DNA from: a virus
Virus record (IMG/VR): IMGVR_UViG_3300025652_000194
Location: 1 to 38,658 of that record
DNA: 38,658 nt
Direction: 5' to 3' (one strand)
Below the pieces are notes generated by a model that saw only the letters and a list, made by a program, of their open reading frames with translations, ran no database searches and was not told the DNA's origin. The stretch's first letter is position 1. Every line of letters begins with the position of its first letter. This document shows, in pieces, positions 3,775 through 27,825 of this stretch. The translations under genes were made by a program, and so were the position numbers.

Positions 3775-4476
3775 TTAATTTAATAAGAATTTATTTATTT
3801 TAGTAATTAATAAATTTTCACTTTTATCTATAGACTCTGTAAATGGTTTTGCTTGTTCTCTACTATTAAACATCCAAGACCCAGGTGTACTTGGTGATGT
3901 CACAACATCCCAACAAATGATTTCAAAATCTTCTTGAACAATATGGTCACCATTAATTTCTGTAAGTGAACCAACACCCCTAGATGATACTCCAATCATT
4001 ATCTTATGTCTTAATAAGTTAGCAACTTCATCACCTTTACAAGATATAATTCCATGCTTAATGAAACCTGGTGACATAAGTACTTCCATAGTACCCATAA
4101 GTGTTTTTCCTTCCCACCATGTTTTAGTTATGTTATGTGATATTCTATCCCCAGCGATTATTGAAGATTCTGGATGGTCTAGTTCACCAACAGCTCTACG
4201 TTGTTGAATCAACTCTTGGTATCTATCTACCTCTCTTTCTAAGATATTTCGTGGATATATTCTTCCATTACGATTCTTTACACCCCATTTTTGTAATACA
4301 ACATAAACCACAAGTGGTTCAAACATTATATTAACACCAGTAGATATCTTATCAATCTCATTGATGAATTCTTGGTTTCGTGTATCATCTGGTGATATGT
4401 AACCAGCATCTTGTTCTATTAAGTATCCAAAACCAGTTTGTCCAGGTTTAAGTATTTTTACGTCAGCGTCAAACAT
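3775..4476 (-). CDS. 21: Prohead core protease, T4 gp21-like (herpesvirus-assemblin fold)
   Basis: Serine protease that matures the T4-type prohead by cutting scaffold, capsid and itself. The 233-residue product has the family landmarks: NRNGRIYP at 69-76, GELDHP at 98-103 with the probable catalytic His101, the ISHNITKTW strand at 112-120, and GVSSRG at 162-167 with the probable catalytic serine (Ser164 or Ser165). Length is close to T4 gp21 (212 residues). It lies between a terminator and the scaffold gene and has its own copy of the late motif 17 bases before the ATG. Predicted substrate sites of the L-x-E type occur in the neighbouring capsid protein. Confidence 0.92.
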   Translation of the reverse strand: MFDADVKILKPGQTGFGYLIEQDAGYISPDDTRNQEFINEIDKISTGVNIMFEPLVVYVVLQKWGVKNRNGRIYPRNILEREVDRYQELIQQRRAVGELDHPESSIIAGDRISHNITKTWWEGKTLMGTMEVLMSPGFIKHGIISCKGDEVANLLRHKIMIGVSSRGVGSLTEINGDHIVQEDFEIICWDVVTSPSTPGSWMFNSREQAKPFTESIDKSENLLITKINKFLLN

Positions 4477-6687: not shown

Positions 6688-8835
6688 TTATTCATCTAAC
6701 GTTTTGTTTATTTCCTTAATCATCTCATCTATATTTTCATTGATACGAATATTTTTGTCCACAATCTTAATTCGCTCATTCATTATTTTATCACCATCTG
6801 GCTTAATAGAATTAAGTAAGGCATTACCATGGATATTACTAATTCTACGGATATTATTACCCAATTTTTTATTACCATTATGCTTTCTAATTTCTCTAAC
6901 AATACCTTTAGCTTTTTCTCTGTAATAATTAGCGGTTTCAAAATCTTGTTCGGCAAGATATTTCTTTTGATTACCTAATGCAGTTAGTCTATCTTCTTTA
7001 AGTAGTTTTAATTTATTAAAACCTTTAGATTCTTCTGTGGTTTCTGGTGCATCTGTATCACCACCATCTAAACCTTCATCGCTACCATCACCCAATTCAA
7101 GTTCACCACCATCTTCTAAACCTTCATCACCATCAATTTCTAAATCATCACCACCTTCATCAAAGTCAAGACCCCCACCACCGAAGCCACCACCACCGAA
7201 GCCACCATCTCCGCCACCTTCTCCATCGCCACCTTCGTCTTCAGCAGATTGTCCACCTTCTTTAGCTTTATCCATATCACCATGAACCCTATCAACTGGG
7301 TCAAATGTACCAGTATGTTTAATAACACTCGCAGTATTCTCTAATTCTGCTGCGGCTGCTTTCTCCATTCTTTGTTCAAGTAAATCTTGTTTAATCTCAT
7401 CATCACTCCATTCAAGTATTTCTCGTTTACCCCTAGTCATTGACATAGGTGCAAATCCATTACCCGCATCAGTTACGGCATCCCTATAAAGGTTAACCTT
7501 AGCTTGTAAGTGTTCAGTCCTAAGCATCTCTGCTTGTGTTGAGGGGTTGTTAAGTGTAAGTGTGAAATTATCTAACTCATCTTCTAACCCTAATAAGAAT
7601 AAATGTAATATAGCAATCTTGTTCAATTCTTGAATCATTGCTTGTTGTATTCTATTAATGGTTCTTGTAAACCTAATATCTTGTAGTGCTAAGTTTTTAC
7701 CATCACCAAAAGCATCTTCATATCCTATGAATGACTTAGGTACTCTAACAGCAGTAAATAGCTTTCTTTGTAAGTATTCTATATCCGCAATTTGGTCTAA
7801 GTTTGCAGCACCTGGAAGTGTCTCAATTGGACTTGGTGCATCTTCAGTTCTAACTGGTATGAAGAAATCTTGGTCATTAGCCAATTGATTGTATTTCACA
7901 TCAATTTGACCCGTTTGGGCATCCATGATTGGGGTTCTCTTAAACCTATTAGCAATTTCATCTACATAAGCACCCACATCGGCATCATCAATGTTACCAA
8001 CATAAATCTTGTATATTCTTCTTTCTGGTGCTCTAGTTACACGATATATAAGCATCGCATCTTCAGATAGTAATAGTTGTTTCCAAATACGTCTACCCTT
8101 TTCAAGCATAGATGTACCATATGGAAGTCTTCTATCATCACCAAGAAGTCTAAAGTGACCTACTTGCCAAGAACTAAATTCAATATCTCTACCTCTCCAG
8201 TAAAACTTAACCTTTGGGTCATCATCTGGGTCAGTACTTGTTGAAGTACCTAATAAAAGTCTGTTGTATAAATCACCCTCACGTCTTTCAATTTCGAAGT
8301 TAGGTAATTGTCGTGCACCAATAACACCAGCTTTATCATCGATGTTAAGGAATACAAAGTTATCACCATACTTACAAGTGTTTCTAGTCCACATCGGAAG
8401 TGTTGTATGTACATCCAGTCTATTGAAGAATAAATCTTCTAAAATGGTTTTCACCCTTTTTGAATCTGAATAAACGTTTAATACTCTACCCTTTTCATTA
8501 ATGGTAGTAGCTTCTTCCATCATCACATCTAGTGCTGCCGAAATCTCTGGATAAAATTCCATACTTTCGAAATCGGTATAAGAACCAATACGGGTTGTTT
8601 CATAGTGAACTGAGTGTTGAAATAATTCTCCATCAACTTTCTTCCACATCCCACCAAGATACTTATTTTGTTGTGCTTGTAATTTAGCTTGGTCATACTC
8701 TGCTTTATCAGAGGTTTTCAGTAATACATCATTACCGATTGAATATCTATTTGTTATACTCTTAGGAACATTAATACCTTCTGGTGAAAATATATTGTTT
8801 AACCTTTGAAATACTGTTAAATTCTTTTTTGCCAT
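6688..8835 (-). CDS. 20: Portal vertex protein, T4 gp20-like, with long C-terminal extension
   Basis: Forms the dodecameric ring through which DNA enters the head. The core matches T4 gp20: LIYRVTRAPERRIYKIYVGN, then IETLPGAANLDQIADIEYLQ and KLFTAVRVPKSFIGYE, the counterparts of YRVVRAPERRVFYVDTGN and STLPGGQNLGELADVEYF-KLYRALNVP. At 715 residues it is much longer than T4 gp20 (524). The excess is C-terminal: residues 526-604 are a Gly/Asp/Glu tract including GGFGGGGFGGGG, and 605-715 are charged helices containing a UVR-like motif (QDFETANYYREKAKGIV). The gene follows the small gene after terminase at 51 bases and has AAAATTATGGC at its start. Probably cotranscribed with terminase. Confidence 0.95.
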   Translation of the reverse strand: MAKKNLTVFQRLNNIFSPEGINVPKSITNRYSIGNDVLLKTSDKAEYDQAKLQAQQNKYLGGMWKKVDGELFQHSVHYETTRIGSYTDFESMEFYPEISAALDVMMEEATTINEKGRVLNVYSDSKRVKTILEDLFFNRLDVHTTLPMWTRNTCKYGDNFVFLNIDDKAGVIGARQLPNFEIERREGDLYNRLLLGTSTSTDPDDDPKVKFYWRGRDIEFSSWQVGHFRLLGDDRRLPYGTSMLEKGRRIWKQLLLSEDAMLIYRVTRAPERRIYKIYVGNIDDADVGAYVDEIANRFKRTPIMDAQTGQIDVKYNQLANDQDFFIPVRTEDAPSPIETLPGAANLDQIADIEYLQRKLFTAVRVPKSFIGYEDAFGDGKNLALQDIRFTRTINRIQQAMIQELNKIAILHLFLLGLEDELDNFTLTLNNPSTQAEMLRTEHLQAKVNLYRDAVTDAGNGFAPMSMTRGKREILEWSDDEIKQDLLEQRMEKAAAAELENTASVIKHTGTFDPVDRVHGDMDKAKEGGQSAEDEGGDGEGGGDGGFGGGGFGGGGLDFDEGGDDLEIDGDEGLEDGGELELGDGSDEGLDGGDTDAPETTEESKGFNKLKLLKEDRLTALGNQKKYLAEQDFETANYYREKAKGIVREIRKHNGNKKLGNNIRRISNIHGNALLNSIKPDGDKIMNERIKIVDKNIRINENIDEMIKEINKTLDE
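7024..7260. repeat. Low-complexity Gly/Asp/Glu-coding tract in portal gene
   Basis: The DNA is a run of CCACCA, CCGAAG and TCATC-type units encoding residues 526-604 of the portal, with the duplicated peptide GFGGGG. It separates the conserved portal core from a helical tail. Confidence 0.7.
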
Positions 8836-9162: not shown

Positions 9163-10974
9163 TTATCTTGTTCCACTAAATAACCAAAGGTAATCACCAT
9201 TTGGGTCTTGCACCGAATTCCTAACACTTGGGTGTAACCTAGGTTTAGGTAATGCTTTTATATTTCTATTTGCTCTGGATACATATCCAGTATTATATTC
9301 TTCTTTTACTGTTGCCGCACCACCAATTGCCCAACCACTTAACATAGCCTTATTTTGACTTTCTAATTTTTCCATCTTTTTAAATGCGTGTTCCATTATC
9401 CAAAGAATCATGGCCAAAGCCATAAGTAAATCATCATGAGAACCAGCTTGGTGGTCTGGTCTACCATTTACATAAATAAATGTACCCATCTCAGATGTTA
9501 ATCTACTAGACCTAACTTTAATACCATTAGTCCTAATCATTAATTCCAAATTTGCAATCATTGGTAATCTAACACCATTCACATTGAAACCTGGGGTTTT
9601 ACTATTCTTTTCATAGAATTGTAATTGACTAGCTTTACTATTAAGTATTTTTCTACCATTGGGGTCCTCATAATGTAAATATTGATAATCTAATTCAATT
9701 AATTTTAATACGGTTGCAACACCCATACCACCACAGATATCAACTACCGTGTAAGCTGCATATAGATTACCCCATTTATAAACTAACTCACCAAGTAAAT
9801 CTGGTGCTATCATACCTTGGTATTCCATCACCTCTTCCATGGTGGTCATATCAACAATAACTATTGTAGATGAATCTTCCCCATCACCTCTAGCAACATC
9901 GACACCCATACCATATTGGTGACCAACAATTGGTTTCTCCCAAATCCAAAACTCACCCTCTTTACCATCTGTATAATCTGGCTCTCTAACATTATGTAAT
10001 TCTTGGTATAAGATATCTTTATCTGCGATAACGTTACCACCAGAACCAAGGAATGATACATCAAGCTCTTGAGCAATCTTTCTTGGATTTTGATGAAGTG
10101 TTTCACACATACCCTCATACCAACTAGATGTTGGTTTAAAACCATCCTTAAGAAAATCATCATACTTAAGTTTATCGTATTCTACTTCATCAAACGCATC
10201 CTCAATCTCACCATCTTCACCTTCTTTAATCCATCTAAGGTCTTTGTTATAACGTGGGTCTTCATACCAACGCATTTCAATTATATTATATGTATCTTTA
10301 GTTTTAACCTTTGTGTTCTTAGCGTGGTCATATGTTTTCCAATATAATGAATCCTTACCATTAGGTGTAGAAATAAGCATTGCTTTACCACCAGTTGCAC
10401 AAGATGACATCGCTGCCGAATAAACATCGATACCATTATCAATAAAGGCTGCCTCATCAAATATTAAGTGTGTTGGTGTATATCCCCTAAGTGCATCTTC
10501 AGATGTTGCAACGGCTATGAATGAAGAACCATTTGGTAATGTAAATTCTGTTGTAGAGTTATTAAGCCAAGCATCTTTAGACTCTTTTTCTTTTGAACCG
10601 TAATATTCTTCACCCCATACCCATCTAGGTAATTGTTTAGAATACCCTTTAATCCCTTTTAAGAACTTCTTAGCCAGTGTAAGCTTGTTGGCGATGATAA
10701 GACATGTTACTGGTTTCTTTTTACTCGCAAACGCAGCCTTAACGGTCATATAGGCTTGTGTGGTTGTAGATATTCCAGCTTGCCTTGGTTTTGCAACAAG
10801 ATTAAATCTATATTCTTCGTAATCCCTTATAATTTCAACTTGTTTATCAAACAAATTAAAGGGTACAAAACTTTCATTGGTGTGGTCATAAGTTTCCAGA
10901 TACGTCTTTATAGGATATACTGGGTCTTGCAGACATTTACCATATTCAGTTAATATTTCTAATTTTGTTAACAT
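9163..10974 (-). CDS. 17: Large terminase subunit, T4 gp17-like
   Basis: Motor that packages DNA and cuts concatemers. In the N-terminal ATPase the P-loop is AKPRQAGIST (61-70), Walker B is LIFDEAAFI (170-178) and the coupling motif is ISTPNG (201-206). The P-loop lacks the usual GK and instead reads PRQAGIS, a variant known from other T4-like terminases in which an upstream lysine (here Lys62) may serve. The C-terminal RNase H-like nuclease shows GMGVDVARGDGEDSS around Asp359, TVVDICGGMG and HDDLLMALAMIL with the acidic metal ligands. At 603 residues it matches T4 gp17 (610). It heads the terminase-90aa-portal unit, with the late motif 10 bases before the ATG. Tail sheath and tube genes, which lie between 17 and 20 in T4, are absent from that interval here. 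Confidence 0.95.
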   Translation of the reverse strand: MLTKLEILTEYGKCLQDPVYPIKTYLETYDHTNESFVPFNLFDKQVEIIRDYEEYRFNLVAKPRQAGISTTTQAYMTVKAAFASKKKPVTCLIIANKLTLAKKFLKGIKGYSKQLPRWVWGEEYYGSKEKESKDAWLNNSTTEFTLPNGSSFIAVATSEDALRGYTPTHLIFDEAAFIDNGIDVYSAAMSSCATGGKAMLISTPNGKDSLYWKTYDHAKNTKVKTKDTYNIIEMRWYEDPRYNKDLRWIKEGEDGEIEDAFDEVEYDKLKYDDFLKDGFKPTSSWYEGMCETLHQNPRKIAQELDVSFLGSGGNVIADKDILYQELHNVREPDYTDGKEGEFWIWEKPIVGHQYGMGVDVARGDGEDSSTIVIVDMTTMEEVMEYQGMIAPDLLGELVYKWGNLYAAYTVVDICGGMGVATVLKLIELDYQYLHYEDPNGRKILNSKASQLQFYEKNSKTPGFNVNGVRLPMIANLELMIRTNGIKVRSSRLTSEMGTFIYVNGRPDHQAGSHDDLLMALAMILWIMEHAFKKMEKLESQNKAMLSGWAIGGAATVKEEYNTGYVSRANRNIKALPKPRLHPSVRNSVQDPNGDYLWLFSGTR

Positions 10975-15399: not shown

Positions 15400-16500
15400 T
15401 TAATTAGAAAGTGGGGCTTTAATACTTGAATGGGACTTATAATCTTCAATCTTGAAATCTTCGAACTTATAACTGAATATATCCTTAGCTTTATTTAAGA
15501 TTAACTTAGGTGAATCAAATTCATTTGTTCTACTCAATTGTTCGGCTACCTGGTCAAAATGGTTCTTATAGATATGTACGTTGGTTAAATCACCAATCAA
15601 CTTATCTGGAATCATATTAACTTGTTGTGCAACCATATGAAGTAAAAATCCATAACTAGCAATGTTAAATGGAATACCTAAGAAGGTATCACAAGAACGT
15701 TGATGCCATTTAAGAGATAACTTACGATAAGGTATTAAATCACCATAAATTAAAGGTTGTCCACGATATAAATACTTATTTGCTTCATGAGCTGGGTCAA
15801 ATGAATCCCTTACCCAATCCACAGTATCAATAACAATTTTAATCCTTTCATCATGAGTTAATTCCTCAGTATAGAATTCAAATGCCCAGTGACATGGTGG
15901 TAGTGTCATTTCACTTATCTCACCAACATTCCAAGCAGACACCATAATACGTCTACCATCTGGGTTGTTATTTAATTGGTCAATAACATTTTGGATTTGG
16001 TCAATTGTTTTAACCGCCACTTTACAATTTTCATTAGTTATATCATATGGAATAAGAGTTTTCCATTCTCTCCATTGTTTTCCGTAGATTGGACCTAAAT
16101 CACCCCATTCCTTAACAAAGTGGTCATCATCATCAAAATTATTAATCTTATCTACAAAATCTTCTTGTGAAAGGATATCAAATCGATTAGAATGTATTGT
16201 TGGATGGTTGTTATGATAATGTTCATATTTCTTATATGCGTCACCAGTCCAAATATTAACCCCATTATTCACAAGGTATTTAATGTTGGTATCACCATTA
16301 AGAAGCCAAAGTAACTCATGTATGATTCCTTTAGTAAACATCTTTTTGGTTGTAAGCAGTGGAAAACCATCTGCCATATCTAATTCAAGGGTATGGTGAA
16401 ATATGGATTTAGTACCAGTACCAGTTCTATCACCCTTTAGTACACCTTCATCCATAATCTTATGGAGAAGCCTTAAGTATTTTCCATCAACCCTACTCAT
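15400..16500 (-). CDS. thyA: Thymidylate synthase
   Basis: Converts dUMP to dTMP with methylene-tetrahydrofolate, supplying thymidine for phage DNA. Family signatures are in order: DRTGTGT (24-30), FPLLTTKK (46-53), IIHELLWLLNGDTN (59-72), GPIYGKQWR (136-144), the catalytic LPPCHW with Cys203 and its downstream partner RSCDTFLGIPFNIASY (268-283), HIYKNH (309-314) and the C-terminal SIKAPLSN. At 366 residues it is about 100 longer than the E. coli enzyme; one insertion of about 45 residues lies between the catalytic Cys and RSCD (TEELTHDERI to RKLSLKW). It overlaps the preceding gene by 8 bases and follows the KTSC gene in the same direction. Confidence 0.95.
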   Translation of the reverse strand: MSRVDGKYLRLLHKIMDEGVLKGDRTGTGTKSIFHHTLELDMADGFPLLTTKKMFTKGIIHELLWLLNGDTNIKYLVNNGVNIWTGDAYKKYEHYHNNHPTIHSNRFDILSQEDFVDKINNFDDDDHFVKEWGDLGPIYGKQWREWKTLIPYDITNENCKVAVKTIDQIQNVIDQLNNNPDGRRIMVSAWNVGEISEMTLPPCHWAFEFYTEELTHDERIKIVIDTVDWVRDSFDPAHEANKYLYRGQPLIYGDLIPYRKLSLKWHQRSCDTFLGIPFNIASYGFLLHMVAQQVNMIPDKLIGDLTNVHIYKNHFDQVAEQLSRTNEFDSPKLILNKAKDIFSYKFEDFKIEDYKSHSSIKAPLSN

Positions 16501-16921
16501 TGATTTGAAGATAATGGTTAGTCATGTGATTAATTCTTTCGATTGCTTGGTTGGTGATAACGTTACCAGTATCAACACTACTAATAAACATCCTCATATA
16601 TTCAACCATATCTTCAGTATGCGATTTAATTTCACTTTCCTTTAATAGTAAGATTTCATCTTCGAATACTTTAACGTCTACATCTTCATTCTTTACAAAC
16701 TTAAATTTCTTAATACTACTGTTTAATACCTTACCTTGGCTTTCAGCAGTTTCAAATCTAAAATAGTCAGTATGTGGTACATCAAGATAGGTATAACTCC
16801 CACCAAATTTAAATATTACTGTTAAATTGTTATTACTTGTGTCATAAGTTGACGCTACAACGTTGGATGAATCATACAATGATGTAGTTACGTTTTCATT
16901 AATTACTTTTTGTCTTAACAT
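16493..16921 (-). CDS. KTSC-domain protein
   Basis: The 142-residue product carries a KTSC-type domain at about residues 18-75: SSNVVASTYDTSNNNLTVIF, FGGSYTYLDVP, YFRFETAESQGKVLNSSIKK. This fits the family pattern S-x-x-I-x-x-x-x-Y-D, F-x-x-G-x-x-Y-x-Y-x-x-V-P, A-x-S-x-G-x-x-x-N. The domain is common in phages and near lysyl-tRNA synthetases, and its biochemical role is not established. Residues 80-142 are charged helix. The gene precedes thyA with an 8-base overlap and belongs to the unit started by the minus-strand early promoter at 17173-17203. Confidence 0.8.
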   Translation of the reverse strand: MLRQKVINENVTTSLYDSSNVVASTYDTSNNNLTVIFKFGGSYTYLDVPHTDYFRFETAESQGKVLNSSIKKFKFVKNEDVDVKVFEDEILLLKESEIKSHTEDMVEYMRMFISSVDTGNVITNQAIERINHMTNHYLQINE

Positions 16922-17245: not shown

Positions 17246-19753
17246 ATGATAAACAAAATATATATGAATAGAAATGTAGTCCCAAAGGTTAAGGTCATTA
17301 TAAAAAACGCAAATGATATTGCAAAGGAGTTCGATGATAACTTCGTAAGACCAGAACATGTGTTACTGGCAATCCTTAATGATAAAAAAAATAACTGCGT
17401 ATCGTTGTTATCAGAAATGAATGTAGATTTAATTTCATTAACTGAAGATACTAACGAATTTATAACCACTTCAAATCTAAATAGGATTGAAGGGCTTAAG
17501 ACAAACGTAAAATTAGAATTTAGTGATGAAACCAAAACTGCGTTTAGGTTATTATCAACAGAAGCCAAGGGTGTTAAATCAGATGTAATTGATACGGCAC
17601 ATGTATTGTTGGGGATATTAACCCACAATACTTGGGATTTTGTTAAATTACTTAGAAAACATCGTATAACCCATAAAAGCTTTAAAGGTATAATTATGAA
17701 ACTTAATAATGAATTCGGTTCTTTTAAAGATGATGATAGCGATGCTAGTGATTCAGATATACCATTCCCAATGGGTAGTAAAGACAAGAAAGATAAAAAC
17801 GGTCGCACACCAGTTTTGGATAATTTCTGTAGGAACATAACCGAGGTTGCCAACGAAGGTGGTATTGACCCAGTTATTGGTAGACAAAAGGAAATTAAAA
17901 GAATATCTCAAATACTTGCTAGACGTAAGAAAAATAACCCAATTTTAATTGGTGATGCTGGAGTTGGTAAAACAGCGATAGTTGAAGGTCTTGCAATACT
18001 TATAAATGAAGGTAAGGCATCTAGGGTGTTATTGGATAAAAAGATTTATTCATTAGACCTATCTTCAATTGTTGCTGGTACTAAGTATCGTGGACAATTT
18101 GAAGAACGAATGAAGGCCATTTTAAATGAATTAAAAAATAATAAAGATGTTATTTTATTCATAGATGAATTTCACACCATTGTTGGTACTGGTAATGCAT
18201 CTGGAAGTATGGATGCTGCTAATATATTTAAACCAGCCTTAAGTAGTGGTGAAATTCAAGTAATCGGTGCTACAACACCAGATGAATTTAGAGAAAATAT
18301 CGAAGGTGATACTGGTTTAACAAGAAGATTCCAAAGAGTGAATATTGAAGAACCATCAATTGAAGAAACTACGGTGATTCTTAATAACATAAAAAACAAA
18401 TATGAGGAACACCATGGTGTTATCTATACAGATGAAGCCATTAACGAATGTGTTAGGTTATCAGATAGATATATAACAGATAGAGCCATGCCAGATAAAG
18501 CAATCGATGTTTTGGATGAGGTGGGTGCAACTACTAATGTTGATATAGTAGCACCAAATAATATTAAAACCTTAGAAGAAAACAAATACGAAATTAGTAA
18601 ACATAAATTAACTGCCGTAGCTAAACAAGATTTCGAAGCCGCAGCCAAACTAAGGGATGAAGAACGTAAAATTATCGAAGCGTTGGATATTGAAAAAGAG
18701 AAATGGGAAAAATCATTAGACAATAATAAAACTATTGTTAATGAAGTATTGGTTTCAGAAGTTGTTAGTATGATGACTGGAATACCAATTAGTAATATGT
18801 CCACTGAAGAAACCAAAAGATTGGTTAATATGGATAAAGACATTAAAAAACTAATCATTGGTCAAGACAGAGCCGTAGATAAGGTTGTTAAAGCCATTAA
18901 ACGTAACCGTCTTGGTATTAAAGATAAAAGTAAGCCTATCGGGTCATTTATATTTTTAGGACCAACTGGTACTGGTAAAACCCATTTAGCTAAATTACTT
19001 GCAGAAAACCTATTTGGTTCTGAAGATGCATTGATAAGATTAGATATGTCCGAATATATGGAAAAATTTAATGTTACAAGCCTTATCGGTCCACCACCTG
19101 GGTATGTTGGTTATGAAGAAGGTGGTCACCTAACTGAGAAAGTTAGAAAAAGACCATACTCTGTTGTTTTATTTGATGAAATCGAAAAAGCACATGAAGA
19201 TATTTACAATGTATTACTTCAATTATTAGATGATGGTCAATTAACAGATGGATTAGGTAGGCAAGTTAACTTTAAAAATTGCCTAATTATAATGACATCT
19301 AATATTGGTGTTTCAGAACTTAATACATTCGGTAAGAATATGGGGTTTGAAACGGGGGCTACTGTTGTTAATACAGAAAAGAACATGCGTTCAATCATTG
19401 ATAAGGCACTTAAAAAGAAATTCAAACCAGAATTCCTTAATAGACTAGATGATTCAATCGTGTTTAATAGCTTAACACAAGAAGATATTCATAAGATTAT
19501 CTATAATGAAATAGATGACCTTAAAGAACGTGTGTTGGAAAGTGGGTATGTGATTAAAATTGCTAAAAGTGCAATTACCTATGTGGCAATACAAGGATAT
19601 GATGCAACCTATGGTGCAAGAGAACTTAATAGAGCAATACAAAGATGTATTGAAGAACCAATAGCGGATAAGATTCTATCTGGTGATGTTAAGAGGGGGG
19701 ATACAATTAATATTACCTATAATAAAAAGACCGACAAATTAATACTTAAATAA
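17246..19753 (+). CDS. ClpC/ClpA-type AAA+ unfoldase with two ATPase domains
   Basis: Hexameric unfoldase that threads proteins into ClpP or refolds them. From the ATG (835 residues; an upstream TTG lies inside the promoter) the order is Clp_N repeats (about 10-145), D1 with GDAGVGKT (236-243), pore motif KYRGQFEER and Walker B LFIDEFH (about 304-310), a short middle region with a UVR-like helix pair ([16 protein letters not shown], about 460-475), and D2 with GPTGTGKT (about 572-579), [16 protein letters not shown] and [10 protein letters not shown]. The middle region is short, as in ClpC, not the long ClpB coiled coil. At 699-701 is MGF where ClpA/ClpC/ClpX carry the ClpP-docking loop (I/L/V-G-F/L). 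All nucleotide-binding and arginine-finger motifs look intact. It leads an operon with a DUF5661-like gene (TAATG overlap). No clpP is in the window, so host ClpP would be the partner. Confidence 0.93.
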
Positions 19754-20055
19754 TGAAAGACAAACTAAAGGGTGGTCTATCCGATGATAAATCAGTGGAA
19801 GACATAGCAAATAAATTTGATATATCCGTTGCCGATATTAAAAAACAATTAGAAATTGGTGGTAAGGTTGAATTGGAACATGTTAATGATGAATCGTTAG
19901 CCAAAGAAATTAGCCTAGACCACCTTATAGAAATTCCAGATTATTATACTAGACTTAAGGAAATGGAAGATAAAGCTATTAAATATTGGAAAACAAAAAA
20001 AAGGATTAAAGATATTAAAGAAAAACTTAATAGGTTAAAACCAATAATTAAATAA
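19753..20055 (+). CDS. DUF5661-like protein with HTH-like N-terminus
   Basis: Product of 100 residues. Residues 13-38 (KSVEDIANKFDISVADIKKQ) look like a helix-turn-helix or a short helical bundle of the type 'which components go before'. Residues 38-75 (KVELEHVNDESLAKEISLDH, then LIEIPDYYTRLKEMEDKA) follow the DUF5661 pattern of K-V-G/E-x-E-H, A-x-x-I-A-x-D-H-L, P-x-Y-Y-x-x-L-x-x-M-E. The C-terminus is Lys-rich helix. Start and clp stop overlap as TAATG, so translation is coupled. DUF5661 has no established function; being tied to the unfoldase, an adaptor or substrate role is a testable idea. Confidence 0.75.
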   Translation: MKDKLKGGLSDDKSVEDIANKFDISVADIKKQLEIGGKVELEHVNDESLAKEISLDHLIEIPDYYTRLKEMEDKAIKYWKTKKRIKDIKEKLNRLKPIIK

Positions 20056-26264: not shown

Positions 26265-26403
26265 AAAGAAACCAGTAATGTTATCAACAGTTAGACCACC
26301 AGACAATGGTATCTTCTACCAACTTAATTGGTGGAAAATATCTCCAGGTATTGAACCACCATTTCAAGAATATTATATAAGAAAACCAAAAATTAAACCA
26401 TGA
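26251..26403 (+). CDS. Small hypothetical protein, 50 residues
   Basis: Reads MGENKKKPVMLSTVRPPDNG and then FYQLNWWKISPGIEPPFQEY with a basic end. Its ATG lies within the last five codons of ribonuclease HI and its TGA overlaps the ATG of glutamine synthetase (ATGA), so it fills exactly the gap between the two. The aromatic, Pro-rich composition does not suggest a known family. Confidence 0.65.
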   Translation: MGENKKKPVMLSTVRPPDNGIFYQLNWWKISPGIEPPFQEYYIRKPKIKP

Positions 26404-27467
26404 AAGAACAACTATTAGAAATGCCAACAATACAATTCCACGACCATGTTGTAGAATATATATGGTTAGATGGGCACAAACCAACCCAAAACCTTAGAAG
26501 TAAAACTAAAATAGTAAGAAAATTCGTTAGCGATGACAAACCAATCTGTAGCATCCTCAAATTAGAGGATGTACCAGAATGGTCATTCGATGGCTCATCA
26601 ACAGAACAAGCCGAAGGTAACTTCTCAGACTGTATACTTAAACCAGTCGCAATATATACTGACCCAGGTAGATATAATGGTAAAATGGTGATGTGTGAAG
26701 TAATGAATACAGATAATACACCACACGAATCAAACGCTAGGGCAACAATCCAAGATGATACAAATGAATTCTGGTTCGGATTTGAACAAGAATATTTTAT
26801 AATGGATTGTGCAACACATAAACCATTGGGATTCCCAATTGGTGGTTATCCAGCACCACAAAGTCTTTACTATTGTTCAGTTGGTGGTAAAAATACCCAT
26901 GGTAGAGAAATAGTGGACGAACATATGGAACTATGTTTAGACGCAGGCCTTAAATTTGAAGGTATTAACCAAGAAGTGGCTTGTGGACAATGGGAATTCC
27001 AACTATTCGCAAAAGGTGCAAAGAAAGCTGGTGATGAAATATGGATTGCTAGATACCTATTAGACCGTTTAACTGAAAAATATAAGGTGTATATTGATTA
27101 TCACCCAAAACCAATCAAAGGAGACTGGAATGGTAGTGGTATGCATGCTAACTTCTCAAATGAAACACTTAGAACGTGTGGTTCTGAAGAAAAATTTATG
27201 GAAATATGTGAAACCTTTAGTACCGTAATAGAAGAACATATAGAAGTGTATGGACATGATAACCATAAACGACTAACTGGTAAACACGAAACAGCTTCTA
27301 TAAAAGACTTCTCATATGGTGTTGGAGATAGAGGGGCATCAATTAGAATACCAACGTTGGTTGTTAATAATGGGTGGAAAGGTTATCTGGAAGATAGAAG
27401 ACCAGCATCTAATGGTGACCCATATAAGATTGCTGCTAGAATAATTAAGACCGTTAAGAGTTGTTAG
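26400..27467 (+). CDS. glnA: Glutamine synthetase, type II (eukaryote-like)
   Basis: Makes glutamine from glutamate, ammonia and ATP. The 355-residue length is that of compact GSII enzymes. Signatures in order: PEWSFDGSSTEQAEGNFSDC (59-78), WFGFEQEYF (125-133) with the metal-binding Glu residues, GREIVDEH (168-175), GINQEVACGQWEFQ (188-201), GDWNGSGMHANFS (241-253), RLTGKHETAS (291-300), and FSYGVGDRGASIRIP (304-318) with GYLEDRRPASNGDPY (328-342). All substrate and metal positions appear intact, so an active enzyme is likely. It ends a four-gene early-type operon; start overlaps the upstream stop as ATGA. Glutamine would feed nucleotide synthesis. Its 3' end overlaps the convergent peptidase gene by 14 bases. 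Confidence 0.95.
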   Translation: MKEQLLEMPTIQFHDHVVEYIWLDGHKPTQNLRSKTKIVRKFVSDDKPICSILKLEDVPEWSFDGSSTEQAEGNFSDCILKPVAIYTDPGRYNGKMVMCEVMNTDNTPHESNARATIQDDTNEFWFGFEQEYFIMDCATHKPLGFPIGGYPAPQSLYYCSVGGKNTHGREIVDEHMELCLDAGLKFEGINQEVACGQWEFQLFAKGAKKAGDEIWIARYLLDRLTEKYKVYIDYHPKPIKGDWNGSGMHANFSNETLRTCGSEEKFMEICETFSTVIEEHIEVYGHDNHKRLTGKHETASIKDFSYGVGDRGASIRIPTLVVNNGWKGYLEDRRPASNGDPYKIAARIIKTVKSC

Positions 27468-27825
27468 TGTAAATCTCTGGATTTTGTTTACCAAATATCC
27501 TAATGATTTCACCCGCTTTAGCGTTGGCTTCGTTTTCTATTGCAGAACCATCTGCACCATCTTCGGCAGTACCAGTTAAAGTACCAATCTCATTTTGGTG
27601 GTGATGAACCATTTCATGTGCAAGACTACGCATGACATCCATAATCGCTCTATCCTTTATATATATAACGGTTATGAAGTTCTGGGTGTCGTAGTAAGCA
27701 GTTGTTACTATGTCACCCCTATCTTTGGTTAGTTTAATCTGTAATGGTGTTGTAATATCTAAATAACTCGTTACGAAGTCAATAAACTTACCCATTAATT
27801 CCTTGTTGGACATTCTTTTTTCCAT
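27454..27825 (-). CDS. HExxH metallopeptidase-like protein
   Basis: The 123-residue product carries LAHEMVHHHQNEIGT at 68-82, with the zinc motif His70-Glu71-x-x-His74, and a second helix ENEANAKAGEIIRIFGK (97-113) whose acidic residues could supply the third zinc ligand. This is the minimal zincin layout seen in small phage peptidases. A start four codons later (MSNKELMG) is also possible. No signal peptide is present. It is the only minus-strand gene between two plus-strand operons, overlaps the end of glutamine synthetase and has a late-motif variant 7 bases upstream, so it may be expressed late. Substrate unknown. Confidence 0.8.
   Translation of the reverse strand: MEKRMSNKELMGKFIDFVTSYLDITTPLQIKLTKDRGDIVTTAYYDTQNFITVIYIKDRAIMDVMRSLAHEMVHHHQNEIGTLTGTAEDGADGSAIENEANAKAGEIIRIFGKQNPEIYTNNS

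Follow-up and report, generated by a model that had tools for sequence, protein, structure and literature searches.

The presence of an intact clpC-like gene in a viral genome fragment raises the question of which protease, if any, the encoded unfoldase serves. The fragment, referred to here as the window, is the whole of a 38,658-base IMG/VR virus record (IMGVR_UViG_3300025652_000194) with a GC content of 32.5%. PHROG profiles identify T4-like head genes in it, namely those for the major head protein (276-2075) and the portal (6688-8835), and a terminase (9163-10974) and a gp21-like protease (3775-4476) were assigned from their own sequence. The clpC gene adjoins this head gene block, and the source is a large T4-like phage, most likely of Bacteroidota. 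The matches returned by PADLOC were generic AAA matches. The features on which the analysis rests are given below, with residue numbers counted from the ATG at 17246 (the 835-aa form).

15400..16500, minus strand: thymidylate synthase gene (thyA), a member of a block conserved in 72 of 80 relatives
16493..16921, minus strand: KTSC-domain gene, divergent and upstream of clpC, a synteny marker
17246..19753, plus strand: clpC-like gene, an intact open reading frame with its ATG at 17246, 835 aa
17282..17716, plus strand: N domain with the Clp_N fold, residues 13-157 (Pfam Clp_N, 3e-14; helices 13-157 in the model)
17354..17368, plus strand: first EH-LL motif, EHVLL, residues 37-41 (sequence, alignment)
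17597..17611, plus strand: second motif, AHVLL, residues 118-122 (sequence, alignment)
17951..17974, plus strand: D1 Walker A, GDAGVGKT, residues 236-243 (sequence, alignment)
18083..18091, plus strand: D1 pore loop, KYR, residues 280-282 (invariant in 65 phage rows)
18164..18169, plus strand: D1 Walker B, Asp307-Glu308 (alignment)
18557..18724, plus strand: M domain of the short ClpC type, residues 438-493 (Phe at the F436 position; model helices)
18959..18982, plus strand: D2 Walker A, GPTGTGKT, residues 572-579 (sequence, alignment)
19100..19114, plus strand: D2 pore loop, GYVGY, residues 619-623 (alignment)
19175..19180, plus strand: D2 Walker B, Asp644-Glu645 (alignment)
19340..19348, plus strand: ClpP-docking tripeptide MGF, residues 699-701, at the tip of the flexible loop 698-708 (alignment, model, ClpB control)
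19442..19444, plus strand: D2 arginine finger, Arg733 (alignment)
19753..20055, plus strand: DUF5661 gene, whose ATG shares one base with the clpC stop codon

Judging from the sequence, the true start of clpC is probably the ATG at 17264, which would give a protein of 829 aa, since the initiator methionine of the relatives aligns with Met7 in 46 of 64 phage rows. Pfam matches to Clp_N (3e-14), AAA, AAA_lid_9, UVR, AAA_2 and ClpB_D2-small, together with the structural model and a fold search, give the domain order N-D1-M-D2, with Clp_N followed by two AAA+ modules. The M domain, with its UVR match, a Phe at the F436 position and helices at 438-493, is of the short ClpC type. The Walker A and B motifs of both rings, the pore loops, the arginine fingers and sensor 2 are all present and essentially invariant across 65 phage sequences. 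The best sequence relatives in the PDB are ClpC/MecB proteins, with B. subtilis ClpC at E 3e-207, and the top folds for the model are the ClpC-ClpP complexes 9a66 and 9rai. The first-pass annotation had described a ClpC-like unfoldase with two intact ATPase modules, pore loops and an N domain, and on this Pfam, the PDB and the residue alignment agree; the protein is most likely a ClpC-type hexameric unfoldase, predicted to be catalytically competent.

It shares its domain order, short M domain, catalytic residues and hydrophobic-Gly-Phe loop site with the bacterial ClpCs of B. subtilis (ClpC/MecB), S. aureus and Bacteroidota, and differs from them in being phage-encoded, in belonging to a distinct phage clade with about 50% identity to the Bacteroidota copies, and in not keeping the phosphoarginine pocket. 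With ClpB/Hsp104 it has the two-ring Hsp100 architecture in common, whereas the long M domain and the missing docking tripeptide of ClpB are both features that it does not have. A ClpB identity was rejected on this tripeptide and on a TIGR03346 score of 818 bits, below the cut-off of 1232, and a ClpA identity on the presence of the M domain and a TIGR02639 score of 767 bits, below the cut-off of 993.

With regard to ClpP, the first-pass annotation had placed a docking tripeptide at residues 699-701, and this assignment holds up well. The MGF follows the TSN motif in D2 and aligns with the VGF of B. subtilis ClpC and with the AGF position of S. aureus ClpC, in which AGF occupies residues 671-673 and its mutation, in the mutants G672D/F673D, abolishes ClpP binding (PMC12521514). 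The tripeptide is kept in all 65 distinct phage relatives according to the pattern [IVLMFA]G[FLY]; this pattern has a chance of about 0.003 per position, so that its conservation is more than chance would give. Gly700 is found in 65 of 65, and position 701 is Phe, Tyr or Leu in 61, 3 and 1 of them, respectively; the other loop columns, mostly at about 2-3 bits of entropy, vary around this fixed tripeptide. As a control in Bacteroidota genomes, the tripeptide was present in 7/7 ClpC and in 0/7 host-type ClpB proteins. The annotation had also considered that the loop might be buried or lie away from the IGF position. It is correctly placed in the alignment, and in the AlphaFold2 model residues 698-708, between helices 689-694 and 707-725, have a pLDDT under 50; the loop is thus predicted to be flexible and exposed rather than buried, as expected for such loops. 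Several huge-phage ClpC copies that have lost the N domain (L310, L311, L314-L316) still keep V/IGF at this site.

A ClpP-family search of the 38.7-kb window returned no match, in keeping with the earlier remark that it contains no clpP. Among the relatives, all eight related phage contigs of at least 190 kb (two of them near-copies) and one 130-kb contig have a clpP of their own, and none was found in the remaining 56 related records, all shorter than 160 kb. The gap between clpP and clpC is 114-181 kb in the eight large contigs and 97-181 kb across all nine contigs with both genes, and since the relatives encode clpP so far from clpC, its absence from the window carries little weight. The window's sister clade is known only from fragments: the relatives nearest to the window, represented by fragments of up to 158 kb, gave no clpP, and searches by terminase and by ClpP yielded no long contig belonging to the window's subclade. 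Furthermore, of eight clpP-bearing contigs tested, six have dnaJ immediately upstream of clpP, and dnaJ was found in 0/25 clpP-less fragments tested, among them the 158-kb fragment of the sister group. As dnaJ is also absent, these fragments probably do not contain that region, which suggests that the clpP-less fragments of close relatives are incomplete, although clpP may have been lost in the window's subclade. In the reverse test, starting from ClpP, four large contigs with the terminase region all have clpC, and a 205-kb ClpP contig without that region has no clpC. The huge phages LR745206, LR756502 and LR756508 carry ClpC together with PF00574 genes, LR756508 with only a weaker ClpP-family match.

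The Ser-His-Asp triad is kept in 63/63 distinct phage ClpPs, and a representative protein scores below the NCBI clpP equivalog cut-off, yet has a ClpP match far above that to head-maturation proteases. In S. aureus and B. subtilis ClpP, Tyr63 is a gate-controlling residue of the H-pocket, and replacing it with Ala leads to an open pore (PMC8182300). This Tyr is kept in all 15 host main ClpPs; among the distinct phage ClpPs (L228-L307) the position is His in 57 of 63 and Tyr in six, a natural experiment on the control of the ClpP gate and docking pocket. Comparison of the loop type (MGF, VGF or IGY) with the ClpP pocket residue in eight ClpC-ClpP pairs gave no clean one-to-one match, and because of this mismatch no co-evolution is claimed beyond shared descent.

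In a tree computed without ClpB rows, the phage ClpCs form one clade (34 rows, support 100) whose nearest cellular kin is Bacteroidota ClpC. In a tree of their own, the phage ClpPs form one clade (100/100) among the Bacteroidota main ClpPs. Distances among the ClpCs are correlated with those among the ClpPs (r 0.90, Mantel p 0.0008), which shows co-inheritance and not by itself contact, as vertical inheritance alone would give it. The genome site is also shared: the KTSC gene is divergent from clpC, at an identical clpC site, in the contigs of 77 of the 80 relatives. This single clade at one conserved site indicates that clpC is an old, near-core gene and not a recent capture.

We consider it fairly probable that the window protein is the unfoldase component of a ClpCP protease owned by the phage itself, a reading favoured because the large relatives carry clpP and because both clades are nested within Bacteroidota and co-inherited. 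ClpC would stack on the ClpP barrel via the MGF loop, and substrates would be threaded through the ClpC pore and then fed into ClpP for degradation. The partner would most likely be the phage's own ClpP, encoded beyond this fragment. The substrates would most plausibly be phage proteins that are misfolded or in excess, together with host proteins involved in regulation or defence. They would be selected either by phage adaptors or by the phage N domain, which has departed from the phosphoarginine-binding type. A more tentative extension, which we hold to be possible although doubtful, is that this private ClpCP is orthogonal to that of the host, the phage ClpC reading its own substrates and preferring the phage ClpP, with His63 keeping the phage and host Clp machines apart or making the phage barrel more open.

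The first-pass annotation had instead proposed a takeover of host ClpP, to which the phage ClpC would bind and which it would direct to selected substrates; a phage ClpP would then be absent or of minor importance. The lack of clpP in the window speaks for this proposal, and cross-docking seems plausible because the host main ClpPs keep the H-pocket and the VGF in the loops of host ClpC is similar to MGF; additionally, SPO1 is known to encode an adaptor-like protein that modulates host ClpCP (PMC6873191). Against it stand the ClpPs of the large relatives, a clpC-clpP distance at which a window of this size would not show clpP, and the absence of clpP's neighbour dnaJ from every clpP-less fragment tested. 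The conserved docking loop on which the proposal was built is real; redirection of host ClpP, at one time the first choice, was demoted once clpP had been found in the large relatives and is now the less probable, though still serious, rival.

Less likely still than such a diversion of host ClpP is a stand-alone, ClpB-like chaperone that would act on head or tail proteins, either as a disaggregase or by unfolding them for assembly, and whose docking loop would be an unused leftover. The position of clpC beside the head gene block would suit such a role, and a part in translocation or assembly has been suggested for phage ClpA and ClpX (PMC7824862). Conversely, the tripeptide is strictly kept in an otherwise variable loop, even in the huge-phage copies devoid of the N domain, it is missing from ClpB, and the co-occurrence with ClpP speaks for proteolysis. 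That clpC was taken from a host only recently and has yet to settle into a role in the phage is very improbable. Its closest non-phage kin are indeed Bacteroidota ClpCs, with about 50% identity to cellular copies, but the recency of the capture is refuted by the well-supported phage clade, by the shared site and divergent neighbour, and by an identity of at best 52% to cellular proteins against 64% to phages.

Borrowing and blocking of host proteases are known phage strategies; if the phage-owned ClpCP is real, a lineage of large Bacteroidota phages brings its own protein-disposal machine, with both Clp halves inherited, and phage-directed proteolysis could be tested directly with two purified proteins. 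Taken alone, the window gives a less remarkable result, a further phage ClpC whose partner is probably encoded elsewhere than on this fragment.

The N domain of the window protein bears on how substrates might be selected. The key phosphoarginine residues of ClpC are Glu32 and Glu106 (PMC12583610), and the window protein has Glu, Ala and Val at the Glu32, Glu106 and Thr7 positions, an incomplete pocket set. The first-pass annotation was right in that EHVLL is kept and the second motif is AHVLL. The phosphoarginine reading that it attached to this difference did not stand, given that the second-motif Ala is also common in cellular Flavobacteriaceae ClpC, that nearly all of these N domains have the first PEH motif and that Thr7 is missing as well. 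Among phage sequences the E106 position is mostly Thr. Loss of the glutamate as a phage adaptation was rejected because the cellular Flavobacteriaceae proteins share the identical Ala. A search for arginine kinase (PF00217) gave no matches anywhere, control genomes included, and a search for the ClpS adaptor found none in ten large phage contigs and found it in three hosts.

Phage Clp ATPases and ClpPs as such are already catalogued, in PHROG 4871, in moraphages and in bS21 phages. PHROG 4871 ('ATP-dependent protease') and the moraphage family VOG02072 ('ClpA') are likewise phage-borne Clp ATPases; in the available part of PMC12619734, VOG02072 has an occurrence of 24 in the moraphages, which are large Bacteroidota phages, and a Clp ATPase is near-core in large aquatic Bacteroidota phages with glutamine synthetase, DnaJ and T4-like head genes. 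The moraphage 'ClpA' is catalogued there by name, and that part of the source does not discuss the docking loop, the ClpP partner or the N domain (PMC12619734). The bS21-encoding Bacteroidetes phages are also large and are reported to carry chaperones and Clp protease, and the available text on them does not analyse the ClpC pairing, the catalytic residues or the pocket (PMC9723584). ClpP, ClpA, ClpX and ClpS are known from jumbo phages, with ClpP in groups 1 and 2.2 and ClpA/ClpX in some (Iyer et al. 2021, PMC7824862). In contrast to the jumbo-phage ClpP, the ClpC and ClpP described here are both found within a single lineage and derive, once each, from Bacteroidota-type proteins, and most of the ClpPs carry the Tyr63-to-His change. 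The literature searched gave catalogues and host-factor papers and no study that considers ClpC jointly with ClpP in these phages, most subscription papers lying outside the search; as far as could be searched, the paired ClpC-ClpP inheritance and the His for Tyr63 in most phage ClpPs appear to be new.

Several observations concern the genes around clpC and clpP. The DUF5661 gene lies on the same strand as clpC, at most 2.2 kb away, in 38 of the 80 relatives and is a candidate functional partner. A small protein with a strictly conserved HExxH...ENEAN signature is encoded at 27454-27825 (minus strand), 7.7 kb from clpC in the window and directly 3' of it in 30 of 80 relatives; its model (pLDDT 89.5) bears a weak likeness to IrrE/SprT-like and minigluzincin peptidases, and the protein is a putative metallopeptidase, often located within the clpC operon. 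The window also contains a glutamine synthetase gene (26400-27467, plus strand), an enzyme reported for nine moraphages (PMC12619734).

The clpC of a 362-kb relative, IMGVR_UViG_3300042502_001233, is interrupted at the D2 Walker A (GPTGVGK / TMLAK), where two intein-like halves that lie in different frames flank a 430-aa endonuclease-like ORF (L312:1477-3321, L313:610-2301). The halves have weak Intein_splicing and Hint matches, and the arrangement resembles a split intein. An insert is present in this phage's terminase too, within one 1001-aa frame. Two near-identical large relatives carry a second, strongly diverged ClpP-family gene of 189 aa with aligned triad residues (L091/L092 1474-2040). 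Finally, dnaJ and two small genes (about 149 and 133 aa) precede clpP in 52-59 of 80 clpP contigs (L228 965-2917 and similar loci) and an FKBP-type isomerase lies near clpP in some, the dnaJ-clpP-FKBP loci forming a phage proteostasis cassette.
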